Below, in pieces: positions 12,677-28,957 of a stretch of DNA of 64,000 bases; positions within the stretch are counted from its first letter, which is position 1; each line of letters starts with the position of its first letter. The notes beneath the pieces were generated by a model that saw only the letters and a list, made by a program, of their open reading frames with translations, was not told the origin of the DNA and made no database searches. The position numbers and the translations under genes are program-made. Origin of the DNA: Pseudomonas xantholysinigenes (lineage in GTDB: Bacteria > Pseudomonadota > Gammaproteobacteria > Pseudomonadales > Pseudomonadaceae); the NCBI RefSeq assembly GCF_014268885.2, contig NZ_CP077095.1, positions 5,284,001-5,348,000 of the forward strand, given 5' to 3'.

Positions 12677-13735
12677 TCAGGCGAACACCTGCAGGCTCTG
12701 CGGCGGCAGCGCCACCCAGATGTCCTGCGAGCCCAGGCGTGGCATGGCGTCCGGCGCCAGCTCGGCAAGCAGCGCGTGGCCTGGCAGGGCCATGAGTTCG
12801 AAGCTCATGCGGCAGCGGTTGCCGAGGAAGGTGATTTCGCGGACTTTGGCCGGGAACAGGTTTTCCTCGTGCACCACCGGGTTGACGGTGATCGCCTCGG
12901 GTCGGCAGAACAGGCGGCCACTGCGGGCGCTTCCGGCGTTGCTGGCCAGGCGCATGTGCATGCCGCCGACCTGGGCATGGCTGTCGCCGCTGCGCTGGAA
13001 GGGCAGCCAGTTGCCCTGGCCGACGAATTCGGCGACGAACGGCGTGGCCGGTTGGTCGTAGATGTCCTGGGGCGTGGCGTACTGCTCGACCTGGCCGTTG
13101 TTCATCACGGCGATGCGGTCGGCCATGAGCATGGCTTCGTCCTGGTTGTGGGTGACCATCAGGGTGGTGATGCCGAGCTGGCGTTGCAGCTGGCGCAGTT
13201 CGGTGCACAGGTGCTCGCGCACACGGGCGTCGAGTGCCGACATGGGTTCGTCGAGCAGCAGCAATGACGGCGCTGGTGCCAATGCGCGGGCGAGGGCCAC
13301 GCGCTGTTGCTGGCCGCCGGACAGTTGGCCGGGGTATTTCTTTTCGCTGCCTGAGAGGCCGACCAGTTCGAGCATTTCGGCGACCCGTTGGCGCGCGGCG
13401 TCGCGGTTGCCGGTGGCCAGGCCGTAGGCGATGTTGGCCTCGACGGTGAGGTTGGGGAACAGTGCGTAGGACTGGAACAGGATGCCGTAGTCGCGGGCCT
13501 GGGGCGGCAGTTCGGAGATGTCGCGGTCACCGATGTGGAGGGTGCCGCGGTCCTGGCGTTCGAGGCCGGCGATGCAACGCAGCAGGGTGGTCTTGCCACA
13601 GCCCGAGGGGCCGAGCAGGCAGACCAGCTCGCCGGCGGCGATGTCGAGGGACACGTCGTTGAGCGCGGTGAAGGCGCCGAAGCGTTTGTGGATACCGCGC
13701 ACCTTCATCTGCGCGCCTGGGGTGACGTTGTTCAT
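12677..13735 (-). CDS. 2-aminoethylphosphonate ABC transporter ATPase (PhnT type)
   Basis: Cytoplasmic ABC ATPase of 352 residues. It has Walker [10 protein letters not shown] (near 42), signature LSGGQQQRVALARAL (near 140), Walker B LLLLDEPMSALDA and the H-loop THNQDEA, followed by a TOBE-type C-terminal extension from about 245. It powers the fused permease encoded next. GAGGACCGGCC precedes the ATG at 13735. It is the first gene of the transport operon; the roughly 1 kb upstream is repeat DNA separating it from the LysR regulator on the same strand. Putrescine/iron-type ATPases look similar, so the substrate call rests on the neighbours. Confidence 0.87.
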   Translation of the reverse strand: MNNVTPGAQMKVRGIHKRFGAFTALNDVSLDIAAGELVCLLGPSGCGKTTLLRCIAGLERQDRGTLHIGDRDISELPPQARDYGILFQSYALFPNLTVEANIAYGLATGNRDAARQRVAEMLELVGLSGSEKKYPGQLSGGQQQRVALARALAPAPSLLLLDEPMSALDARVREHLCTELRQLQRQLGITTLMVTHNQDEAMLMADRIAVMNNGQVEQYATPQDIYDQPATPFVAEFVGQGNWLPFQRSGDSHAQVGGMHMRLASNAGSARSGRLFCRPEAITVNPVVHEENLFPAKVREITFLGNRCRMSFELMALPGHALLAELAPDAMPRLGSQDIWVALPPQSLQVFA

Positions 13736-13863
13736 GGCCGGTCCTCATCGAAGCGATGGAGGCCATGCTAGGAAGGCTATGAGACGGTTGTATGGCGGTG
13801 AGGCCAAAGCGGCTGATAGTGGTATTGGTGGATTTTGTACTAGCCATGCAAGTGTTAGCTGTT
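13736..13863. other. probable promoter region of the aminoethylphosphonate transport operon
   Basis: This 128-bp non-coding stretch lies between the ATPase start and the first hexanucleotide array. It must contain or adjoin the operon promoter, since the DNA beyond it is repetitive. I see no confident -35/-10 pair or LysR box. Confidence 0.35.
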
Positions 13864-13932
13864 GGCTTTGGCTTTGGCTTTGGCTTTGGCTTTGGCTTTG
13901 GCTTTGGCTTTGGCTTTGGCTTTGGCTTTGGC
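13864..13932. repeat. hexanucleotide array (GGCTTT), 11.5 copies
   Basis: Eleven perfect tandem GGCTTT units plus GGC run without interruption. The array marks the left edge of the composite inverted-repeat element. It translates into Ala-Leu or Ala-Lys repeats in open frames that are artefacts of a hexamer containing no stop. Confidence 0.97.
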
Positions 13933-13977
13933 GATCATAAGGTTATCCACAGCACTCGCTAGCGACAGCTGCGCCAG

Positions 13978-14246
13978 CCCAGGCGCCGCCCGTACCTTCG
14001 CGACTTCAGGAGGCCGAACGCAGGCCTTGCGGAGGGAGGTGACGGGCATGGATGCCCGTCAAGCGCTGCGCCCCAGGATGGGGCGTTCAGCGCGGTCCTC
14101 CCGGGAGCAAGGCCGGAGTGAGGGAACCCGGAGCGCAGCGGAGGGCCGGATGAATGGAGCGCAGCGTTTTTTGGTTACTTTTTGTCGCGTTTGACAAAAA
14201 GTGACTCGCCGTAAAGGCGAAAAGGTGATTATGCGTAGATATATCA
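13978..14246 (+). repeat. structured inverted-repeat module, copy A
   Basis: Left arm of an imperfect inverted repeat whose mate is at 14373-14640. The 86 bases at 14026-14111 are identical to the reverse complement of 14508-14593. Hairpins in order: GACGGGCAT-GG-ATGCCCGTC (14041-14060), GCGCTG-CGCCCC with GGGGCG-tt-CAGCGC (14063-14093), CTCCCGGGAG, ACTTTTTGTC with GACAAAAAGT (14177-14202), and TCGCC with GGCGA (14206-14220). A short frame at 14048-14194 starts inside the first hairpin after GGAGGTGACGGGC, but its downstream reading is not kept in copy B. Confidence 0.9.
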
Positions 14247-14284
14247 AATGAATGCGCTTAAAACTATAAAAACCGACACCGATT

Positions 14285-14332
14285 GACTTTGACTTTGACT
14301 TTGACTTTGACTTTGACTTTGACTTTGACTTT
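14285..14332. repeat. hexanucleotide array (GACTTT), 8 copies
   Basis: Eight perfect GACTTT units sit in the AT-rich centre between the two inverted modules. The hexamer differs from the left array by one base (TTTGGC versus TTTGAC). Confidence 0.97.
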
Positions 14333-14372
14333 GAATTGCAAAGCGTGGGTCTTGAAAGTTATATGCTCATTC

Positions 14373-14640
14373 ATTTCCCATGTCGACGCATAGTCACCTT
14401 TCCGCCTTTACGGCGGCCTACTTTTGCACGCGGGCAAAAGTAGGCAAAAACCGCTCGCTCCATTCATCCGGCCCCTACGCTTCGCTCCGGGGTCCCCTCG
14501 CTACGTTCTTGCTCCCGGGAGGACCGCGCTGAACGCCCCATCCTGGGGCGCAGCGCTTGACGGGCATCCATGCCCGTCACCTCCCTCCGCAAGAACTCCG
14601 CTCGGCCTCCTGAAGTCGCAATTGGCGGTGCCTGAACTAT
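14373..14640 (-). repeat. structured inverted-repeat module, copy B
   Basis: Inverse mate of 13978-14246. The first three hairpins are identical in sequence. The fourth is GCCTACTTTTGC (14416-14427) with GCAAAAGTAGGC (14434-14445), and the fifth is CCGCC (14402-14406) with GGCGG (14412-14416). The last two differ from copy A at several stem positions but still pair perfectly. Confidence 0.9.
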
Positions 14641-14654
14641 CGCGCGCTTAGAAG

Positions 14655-14718
14655 CAAGATCAAGATCAAGATCAAGATCAAGATCAAGATCAAGATCAAG
14701 ATCAAGATCAAGATCAAG
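14655..14718. repeat. hexanucleotide array (CAAGAT), 10 copies
   Basis: Ten perfect CAAGAT units plus CAAG form the right edge of the composite element. Read in the orientation of module B this is (CTTGAT)n, again of NTTGRN type like the other two arrays. It ends 46 bases before the 3' end of the LysR gene. Confidence 0.97.
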
Positions 14719-14764: not shown

Positions 14765-15634
14765 TCAGAACTGCGATCCGGCAACTTCCTGCGCTACCCC
14801 CATAAACGCCGCCGGCAACCGCGCCTGACGCCGCTCTTTCAGGCAATACAAATATTCATGCATCACGGGCGCATTTTCCAACACCAACACCCGTAATTCC
14901 GAGTTATGCGGCACTTCATGCCGCGCAATGATGCTGATACCAATATTACGCAGGACCGCCTCACGAATAGACTCTCGACTACCAATCTCCAACAGAGCCC
15001 CAGCCTTGACCCCTGCAGCCTGCATCATCTGCTCAGTCAGCTTGCGCGTGGTCGAACCCGCTTCGCGCATCAACAGGCAATGCCCGGCCACCGCCTCGAT
15101 CGACACCACCTGGCGCTGGGCCAACGGATGGCTACGGTGCACCGCCAGCACCAACGGGTCTGCCCCCAGCACCCGGCGCACTAGCCGCGCATCCTCGAGC
15201 AACTGCGACGAGGCGGCGATGTCCACCCGGTAGTCCTCGAGCATCTCCAGCACCTGCTGCGAGTTGCCGATTTCCACCGCCACCTCCACCTGAGGCAAAC
15301 GTTCGCGAAAAACCTTCACCAAATCGAGGATGTAGTACGGCGCCGTGGCGGCGATACGCAGGCTACCCTGGGCCTGGCCGCTGTTGCGCAGCTCGAACTC
15401 GATGTCGGCTTCCTGCTGCAACAACGCCTTGACCAGTGGCAACAAGCGCACACCCTCCTCGCTCAGCACCAGGCGCCGACCACCACGGTAGAACAGCTCG
15501 ACGTTGTACTGGCTTTCGAGGTTGCGAATCTGCGTGGTCACCGTCGGCTGGCTGAGCCCGAGCTTCTTTGCCGCCAGGGTGACACTGCCCTGGCGGGCCA
15601 CCATGTAGAAGGCTTTGAGCTCGGCGCTCAGCAT
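14765..15634 (-). CDS. LysR-family regulator of aminoethylphosphonate genes
   Basis: DNA-binding regulator of 289 residues. It has an N-terminal winged helix-turn-helix (about 3-60, FYMVARQGSVTLAAKKLGLSQPTVTTQIRNLE) and a LysR substrate-binding domain (about 90-285). It matches the LysR group associated with aminoethylphosphonate catabolism, and the importer and PhnZ-like genes lie directly downstream on the same strand, although separated by about 1 kb of repeat element. The ATG at 15634 follows GGAG by 8 bases; the upstream in-frame ATG (7 codons earlier) does not. Control of the transporter operon is inferred from position. Confidence 0.86.
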   Translation of the reverse strand: MLSAELKAFYMVARQGSVTLAAKKLGLSQPTVTTQIRNLESQYNVELFYRGGRRLVLSEEGVRLLPLVKALLQQEADIEFELRNSGQAQGSLRIAATAPYYILDLVKVFRERLPQVEVAVEIGNSQQVLEMLEDYRVDIAASSQLLEDARLVRRVLGADPLVLAVHRSHPLAQRQVVSIEAVAGHCLLMREAGSTTRKLTEQMMQAAGVKAGALLEIGSRESIREAVLRNIGISIIARHEVPHNSELRVLVLENAPVMHEYLYCLKERRQARLPAAFMGVAQEVAGSQF

Positions 15635-15651
15635 CGCCGGGCTCCACAGCC

Positions 15652-15750
15652 ACAAGCTTCAAGCTGCAAGCCACAAGAAAAAGCCAGGCCGTATCGTTTC
15701 ACTAATCTCACGTTCACCTCGATCAGCTTGCCGCTTGCCGCTTGAAGCTC
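15652..15750. repeat. REP-like inverted pair (family 3, AGCTTCAAGCTGCAAG)
   Basis: CAAGCTTCAAGCTGCAAGC at about 15653-15671 faces GCTTGCCGCTTGCCGCTTGAAGC at 15726-15748, immediately beyond the cadA stop codon. This is a third REP type, distinct from the GCGGG and GGCCGCTCC families, and may end cadA transcription. Confidence 0.6.
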
Positions 15751-28077: not shown

Positions 28078-28090
28078 CAGGCACCGCGCC

Positions 28091-28957
28091 GCCTGCTTCG
28101 CGGGTAAACCCGCTCCCACAGGCGTAGCGCATGGCTTGAGGTCAGCGCGGTCGCTGTGGGAGCGGCTTCAGCCGCGAACACCGGCGCAGCCGGTGCCAAA
28201 CACCGCGTCGCCTGCTTCGCGGGTAAACCCGCTCCCACAGGTGTGGTGCATGCCCTGAGGTCAGCGCGATCCCTGTGGGAGCGGCTTCAGCCGCGAACAC
28301 CGGCGCAGCCGGTGCCAAACACCGCGTCGCCTGCCTCGCGGGCAAGCCCGCTCCCACAGGCGTAGCGCATGGCTTGAGGTCAGCGCGGTCGCTGTGGGAG
28401 CGGCTTCAGCCGCGAACACCGGCGCAGCCGGTGCCAAACACCGCGTCGCCTGCTTCGCGGGTAAACCCGCTCCCACAGGTGTGGTGCATGCCCTGAGGTC
28501 AGCGCGATCCCTGTGGGAGCGGCTTCAGCCGCGAACACCGGCGCAGCCGGTGCCAAACACCGCGTCGCCTGCCTCGCGGGCAAGCCCGCTCCCACAGGCG
28601 TAGCGCATGGCTTGAGGTCAGCGCGGTCGCTGTGGGAGCGGCTTCAGCCGCGAACACCGGCGCAGCCGGTGCCAAACACCGCGTCGCCTGCTTCGCGGGT
28701 AAACCCGCTCCCACAGGTGTGGTGCATGCCCTGAGGTCAGCGCGGTCGCTGTGGGAGCGGCTTCAGCCGCGAACACCGGCGCAGCCGGTGCCAAACACCG
28801 CGTCGCCTGCTTCGCGGGCAAGCCCGCTCCCACAGGCGTAGCGCATGGCTTGAGGTCAGCGCGGTCCCTGTGGGAGCGGCTTTAGCCGCGAACACCGGCG
28901 CAGCCGGTGCCAGACGCCGCGCTGCTAGTTTCTCGGGCAAGCCCGCCCACAGGTCCA
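28091..28957. repeat. 119-bp tandem array, 7 full units plus a degenerate eighth, each with two REP half-hairpins
   Basis: Units begin with GCCTGC at 28091, 28210, 28329, 28448, 28567, 28686 and 28805. Each unit holds a GCGGGTAAACCCGC-TCCCACAGG arm, a facing CTGTGGGAGCGGCTTCAGCCGC arm and an ACCGGC-GCA-GCCGGT-type hairpin. Two unit variants alternate (CGTAGCGCATGGCTTG and TGTGGTGCATGCCCTG). Units 2+3 and 4+5 are identical 238-bp blocks, so the array also grew by dimers. The remainder from 28924 is decayed. No gene is visible inside; the 71-73 codon open frames repeat with the unit and are artefacts. Confidence 0.97.

Follow-up and report, generated by a model that had tools for sequence, protein, structure and literature searches.

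The window analysed here is a stretch of 64,000 nucleotides of Pseudomonas xantholysinigenes (contig NZ_CP077095.1, positions 5,284,001 to 5,348,000), whose P. putida-like genome (G000 in the following) comprises 5.61 Mb in one contig. In the intergenic region that separates the stop of a LysR-type regulator gene from the start of a gene for an ABC-transporter ATPase, this window harbours a noncoding element that consists of two modules in inverse orientation, A and B, and of three perfect hexamer arrays with 11.8, 8.7 and 10.7 copies. The features are, in positions of the window:

12677..13735, minus strand: ABC transporter ATPase gene, flanking, given for context only
13862..13932, plus strand: (TTGGCT)11.8, perfect, the outer array that borders module A on its 5' side; the orthologous locus in genome G102 (L142) has (TGGCTT)8.7
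13933..14282, plus strand: module A, 5'-3' reading away from dif, towards ori
14038..14097, plus strand: match to Rfam RF01731 (TwoAYGGAY) in module A, 40.6 bits, gathering 43
14040..14061, plus strand: hairpin 1 of module A, loop CATGGATG
14063..14093, plus strand: hairpin 2 of module A, loop CCAGGATGG
14174..14205, plus strand: long A/T-rich hairpin of module A; in the alignment an 11-pair helix with double changes in 7 pairs
14207..14219, plus strand: terminal hairpin of module A, CGCCGTAAAGGCG; the window copy has no IS here
14283..14334, plus strand: (TTGACT)8.7, perfect, the central array, which separates the 3' ends of modules A and B
14345..14655, minus strand: module B, inverted, 5'-3' reading towards dif
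14522..14581, minus strand: TwoAYGGAY match in module B, 40.6 bits, gathering 43
14655..14718, plus strand: (CAAGAT)10.7, perfect, the outer array that borders module B on its 5' side, (ATCTTG)n on the strand of B; L142 in G102 has (AGAGCA)6.3
14765..15655, minus strand: LysR-type regulator gene, flanking, given for context only

The inverted arms of the two modules (14000-14129 and 14490-14619) are 93% complementary, and their longest exact inverted match extends over 86 nt (14026-14111 against 14508-14593). An earlier note on this DNA had described two inverted modules that share 86 identical bases and are bounded by three hexanucleotide arrays, and both observations are borne out, as is its claim that the element separates the LysR gene from the ABC genes: in all 23 relatives with the LysR gene (57 genomes searched, the window's own included) the site is empty and the two lie adjacent. 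For the operon, which the earlier note connects with phosphonate, Pfam recognises an ABC ATPase and a solute-binding protein of generic type only. The window has no period-6 run longer than 17 nt apart from the element, and in 20 mononucleotide shuffles such runs do not exceed 19 nt, so that the three arrays are beyond chance; TRF detects three strong arrays with units of at most 12 inside the element and none in the remainder of the window. A long transposase ORF was looked for in the window copy and none was found, and a sigma-70 scan of the region returned one weak site, not above shuffles. Elsewhere in the window, at 28082-28921, a 119-bp unit of REP-like appearance stands in tandem with 7.1 copies.

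Copies, arrangements and turnover of the element

A search of the window's own genome with module A gave at least 57 matches (40 of 74 candidates scored), which, taken with their flanks, form 27 loci. Every locus combines a single A-type module with a single B-type module that is inverted relative to it. Two arrangements occur: in type I (17 loci) A faces B with an array between them, and in type II (10 loci) B and A are placed back to back. A pattern for hairpin 1 matches at 53 sites here, and in G102 and G089 the numbers of sites are 40 and 34; all of them fall, as judged by eye, in the 27, 20 and 19 known loci of the three genomes; such enumerating patterns detect only modules that possess hairpin 1. 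At 7 of the 93 loci in the orientation survey the B module stands alone. One locus of G213 (L193) shows the tandem order A-B-A-B, a possible intermediate between types I and II.

Related modules are present in 261 of 298 Pseudomonas genomes (with no more than two candidates scored in each), and the exact 38-base core occurs in at least 120 stretches. Among the 80 core matches listed nearly all are from Pseudomonas, several of them from P. putida-group species by name, and a few of the records listed are titled Pantoea or Stenotrophomonas; the plasmid and phage sequences compared had no match to the element. The module appears to be an older structured unit present across the genus, and A and B would be its diverged inverted copies. 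It may in part have been catalogued already, as TwoAYGGAY and possibly as R178 and R200, and our searches of the open-licence literature turned up neither the paired element nor an account of its arrays or polarity. R178 (101 bp) and R200 (320 bp) are intergenic repeats of P. fluorescens with 18/28/9 and 47/-/8 copies, respectively, in SBW25/Pf0-1/Pf-5 (PMC2718517). Compared by description, they resemble the modules in size, copy number and intergenic position, and R178 has internal inverted repeats; the available part of that account is, however, silent on arrays and polarity. REPINs and BIMEs are also paired, inverted, intergenic, non-autonomous and hairpin-forming repeats that serve as IS targets, and the available part of one account describes a mirrored orientation for some REP arrays (PMC3116915). 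REPs are, however, 20-40 bp long, with a consensus of their own and a RAYT partner, whereas the element described here has a multi-helix fold, microsatellite edges and modules of about 300 bp, whose sequence differs from that of paired 20-40 bp REP palindromes. A duplication in P. syringae known from the literature was considered and rejected as unrelated, since it is driven by IS.

Elements are gained and lost at single sites, and copies recombine. Besides the window site, a second locus (L050) varies, with the element in G166 and G170, a B remnant in G102 and neither in G186. Hybrid flanks, as expected from recombination between copies, were found at L150 (left flank as in L040, right flank as the left of L042), at L152 (left as in L043, right as in L044) and also at L190, and copies at such hybrid junctions are likely substrates of chromosome rearrangement.

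In addition, an IS3-family IS of 1446 bp (ends TGAACTG...CAGTTCA) resides in the loop of the terminal hairpin of module A at 11 of the 27 loci (L034, L036, L040, L041, L045, L046, L049, L050, L051, L054 and L055). It is flanked by CGT on both sides in ten of them (L046 is one base off) and directed with A in nine and against it in two (L034 and L050). This IS has entered the same spot repeatedly, and the terminal hairpin is a target of several mobile elements. As a mobiliser of the element the IS was rejected: its copies lie within a single hairpin of A, in either direction, and the IS is thus an invader. No transposase and no target duplication of the element's own were found, and at the sites compared the edge arrays obscure duplication. 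The B modules of L034, L040, L042, L049 and L051 carry in their terminal hairpin an insertion of about 160-200 bp that starts with CAGCCCTTTC.

Short-repeat arrays at the module edges

In 99 loci from seven genomes, TRF (unit of at most 12, score of at least 60) located 198 arrays within 150 bp of elements (138 kb), as opposed to a single array at the same threshold in the 311 kb of flanks of those loci. If an edge is counted as occupied where an array with a TRF score of at least 30 lies within 35 bp of the module end (99 loci, seven genomes), arrays occupy 86 of 95 5' edges of B, 61 of 66 3' edges of A, 66 of 79 3' edges of B and 55 of 93 5' edges of A, compared with 137 of 2847 control positions in the flanks. 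The 5' edges of A that have no array belong mostly to type II elements. The units at module edges range from 3 to 12 bases. The proposal of the earlier note, a non-autonomous structured element whose edge promotes hexamer amplification, stands with respect to the association of arrays with edges and is too restrictive in naming the hexamer.

The unit at a given junction is for the most part uniform within a genome. A central array with 3.0-10.8 copies is present in 16 of the 17 type I loci of G000, and the unit TTGACT accounts for 16 of the 17 in G000 and for 10 of 11 in G102, while all 15 complete pairs of G089 have the heptamer AAACTTN. In type II elements AGCAAG forms the central array at 8 of the 10 G000 loci, the 11-mer ATCAAGAGCAG in 8 of 9 loci of G102 and the 12-mer AGCCAGATCAAS in 12 of 13 annotated loci of G251. 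At L032, L144 and L196, which are one locus in three genomes (both flanks match), the unit differs from genome to genome. Since the unit depends less on the locus than on the genome, the copies within a genome are evidently homogenised.

The simplest source of the arrays would be slippage at structured edges. Edge arrays are absent from the loci inspected in G110 (six locus ids, two of which are one place), so that arrays do not arise automatically beside a module and are tied to the paired form. Copies of the module that lack arrays had been named by the earlier note as a sign that the association is due to chance; such copies do exist, in G110, but the paired form has its edge arrays. Two further arrays were recorded: (TTTGGC)23.5 in G005 (L093, 2142-2282), at a distance of about 0.5 kb from a sequence more remotely related to the module, and, at G000:C1:401373-401396, the sole TTKRN-type pattern array of the window's genome away from module loci.

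Folding of the modules and the GGA loops

The pairing of the modules is maintained through compensatory changes. RNAalifold on 27 diverse cores predicts 46 pairs, both sides of which have changed in 27, a count that none of 500 shuffles reached; of the cells, 97.4% are paired, compared with 82.6% in shuffled and 36-48% in slid controls. Part of this margin is to be expected, because the consensus structure was derived from the same alignment and because the motifs used to pick the cores lie in hairpin 1 and in the terminal hairpin, which fixes part of both. A false hit in coding sequence (L035:1426) was dropped before the fold and G-U analyses, and before the core alignment the module A copy of L031 was replaced by the window copy and the shorter L078 duplicate was removed.

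Which strand folds is less clear from these data. The consensus fold amounts to -53.1 kcal/mol with 46 pairs on the module strand and to -40.4 kcal/mol with 36 pairs on the opposite strand; the single-sequence z-scores of the window's module A are -5.3 and -6.7, respectively. In the one-strand prediction G-U outnumbers A-C by 92:2 in A and 100:4 in B, whereas the 29 pairs that the predictions for the two strands share yield 3:0 in A and 24:3 in B, and the antisense alignment, folded alone, favours its own G-U (106:6). The notion that the own strand of each module is the folded one was therefore not upheld, since the G-U excess arises from the one-strand prediction, with a small lean left on the shared pairs.

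The loops are more uniform than the stems. Among 188 modules picked by HMM regardless of loop, CATGGATG is found in 183 and a GGA-form loop 2 in 181 (a previous count of 167 in 171 was made on cores selected by loop motif and is not independent). Four of the misses are A modules of G186, and in the four A modules of this genome that were tested (L113-L116) both GGA hairpins are replaced and the 3' part is retained. Modules may exchange hairpin cassettes. In module A of L113 unrelated GC-rich hairpins occupy the place of the GGA hairpins.

Two adjacent hairpins with AYGGAY-type loops are also what characterises the family TwoAYGGAY, which the window copies match at 40.6 bits, under the gathering value of 43. 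All 12 loci scanned have a match at E<=0.05, and 7 of the 12 attain gathering at least once, with 43.6-55 bits. This family is listed as a candidate RNA from the human gut, gamma-Proteobacteria and Clostridiales (PMC2864571) and has been proposed to bind CsrA (PMC4333381); the available part of the former account is silent on pairing, arrays and polarity.

The modules hold several GGA motifs in hairpin loops (here CAUGGAUG), as do RsmX/Y/Z and CsrB, which carry several such motifs per RNA. The decoys RsmX/Y/Z and CsrB are, however, dedicated sRNA genes, whereas the copies here are scattered and known from sequence alone. RsmX/Y/Z-type sRNA genes are controlled by Gac, and the CsrA consensus is quoted as RUACARGGAUGU (both PMC7937890). 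In P. putida KT2440 all three Rsm proteins (RsmA, RsmE and RsmI) enriched intergenic RNA beside ISPpu8 copies, in a library that was not strand-specific, and one bound region was described as a 'long palindromic region' and taken as a putative ISPpu8 site (PMC7937890). By their description these regions are, like the element, intergenic and IS-associated, and one of them is palindromic; the available part of the account treats the IS and no repeat family. By analogy, they would fit an IS-targeted inverted element with GGA loops and constitute the strongest outside hint of transcription and Rsm binding.

Replication polarity and candidate explanations

In the window's genome, which has dnaA at base 1 and dif at 2,791,167, all 10 loci below dif carry module A on the minus strand, and all 17 above dif carry it on the plus strand. 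Pattern enumeration in six genomes yields 123 loci, and at 122 of them module A is directed away from dif and module B in the opposite direction (G000 27/27, G102 20/20, G089 19/19, G196 10/10, G186 7/7 and G251 39/40). The 123 loci form 65 flank-sharing groups; in the first three genomes every one of the 43 groups obeys the rule, for which chance would account with a probability of about 2e-13 under independence. The lone exception (L358, G251:C1:3586300-3588800) is a full pair in opposite orientation, for which local inversion and insertion the wrong way are candidate readings. In G102 the window locus itself (L142) belongs to the opposite replichore and still obeys the rule.

The position of dnaA at base 1 rests on Pfam for G000 and on protein letters only for G251, G196, G186, G256 and G110; the sequences of G102 and G089 begin elsewhere, so that for these two genomes dif was the sole reference for the rule. 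G213, with no dif match, was left out of the count, and 4 of 199 module hits that break the rule in the orientation survey were set aside as IS-split tail fragments whose A/B type is ambiguous or wrong. Outside the six genomes, G256 leans partially (31 of 40 modules, with 40 of 172 candidates scored) and G110 has no polarity (17 of 40, with 40 of 201 scored), both tallied by eye. Since the G110 modules scored lack polarity and the G110 loci inspected lack edge arrays, the two go with the paired form. The direction of neighbouring genes was rejected as a cause of the polarity, because all four flanking arrangements occur, a result that is indicative only, the codon-based gene caller being rough and missing the ABC ATPase gene of the window. 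In G000 the surroundings of dnaA are free of elements over about 0.31 Mb in one direction and 0.58 Mb in the other, and an ori-proximal depletion of elements may be general.

What has been shown is thus a dispersed, replication-polar, pairing-conserved and array-edged paired element in the P. putida-like lineage. As to its nature, we lean tentatively, and at somewhat less than even confidence, towards a dispersed non-autonomous intergenic element that encodes decoy RNAs of the RsmA/CsrA type and whose arrays are made by slippage. Each module would be transcribed into a folded RNA, the two GGA-loop hairpins of each RNA would bind Rsm (CsrA-family) proteins, and the scattered copies together would act as a set of Rsm decoys. 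Arrays would be born of slippage where replication crosses the structured modules, recombination between copies would even out their units within a genome, and polarity would stem from fork-coupled insertion or from selection on direction, B running with the fork. In its fullest form this proposal describes a bipartite noncoding element, the halves of which take their strands, A and B opposite ones, from the direction of replication (L358 being the one exception among 123 loci) and the junctions of which generate species-homogenised tandem repeats, and which would be both a genome-wide Rsm decoy system and a replication-oriented recombination site; taken as a whole, we consider this rather unlikely. 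The exception at L358 and the dependence of the G-U ratios on one-strand prediction have lowered our confidence in the decoy reading and in its fullest form and raised that in a mobile element acting on single-stranded DNA.

Such an element, comparable to REPINs moved by RAYT or by IS200/IS605-type enzymes, is a somewhat unlikely explanation. If the hairpins were recognised single-stranded at the fork, the insertion strand would be fixed, in keeping with the near-strict polarity, and the arrays would be products of slippage or by-products of the insertion chemistry. The pairing constraint is one on a single strand, with a preference for either strand that varies between measures; orthologous sites differ in the presence of the element; and, in the available part of the account by Bertels and Rainey (PMC3116915), tandem REP arrays of SBW25 are mirrored at about 2 and 4 Mbp. 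The modules of about 300 bp are, however, far from the 20-40 bp plan of REPs, the copies scored in G110 are without polarity, and the letters of the GGA loops are kept while the stems vary, which suggests a factor that binds the loops.

Orientation along the ori-ter axis is also a property of KOPS, Ter and Chi, which are short protein sites. That the element serves as a one-direction chromosomal signal of this kind, in segregation, fork control or repair, is improbable in our view: the 122 polar loci in six genomes and the polarity kept after the change of replichore in G102 would suit it, but such signals have no comparable structure or arrays and are far exceeded in length, merely 7 to 40 loci exist per enumerated genome, the window's orthologous site is empty in 23 of 23 relatives, and the G110 modules scored lack polarity. 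The phase-variable spacer suggested by the earlier note, in which array length would tune the promoter of the LysR gene and ABC operon, could draw on the long perfect hexamer arrays between both genes; as a main role it is very improbable and was not upheld, the locus being one of 27 scattered sites, with mixed flanking gene directions at the 26 others (by the rough caller) and no element at this site in the 23 relatives. Equally slight is the probability of inert repeat debris, with arrays and orientation that have no common cause: elements are indeed gained, truncated and struck by IS copies, but compensatory changes in 27 of 46 pairs, 198 arrays in or near elements against one in the flanks, and polarity at 122 of 123 loci all speak against it.

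Whatever its function, a near-perfect polarity in a dispersed noncoding repeat demands an insertion route tied to the replication fork or strong selection. The element places long perfect microsatellites, which are otherwise almost absent from the DNA examined, at fixed junctions, and the rise, replacement and homogenisation of bacterial microsatellites can be observed in it directly. Should the modules prove to be RNAs that bind Rsm proteins, a large and hitherto unrecognised set of targets would be added to the Gac/Rsm network.
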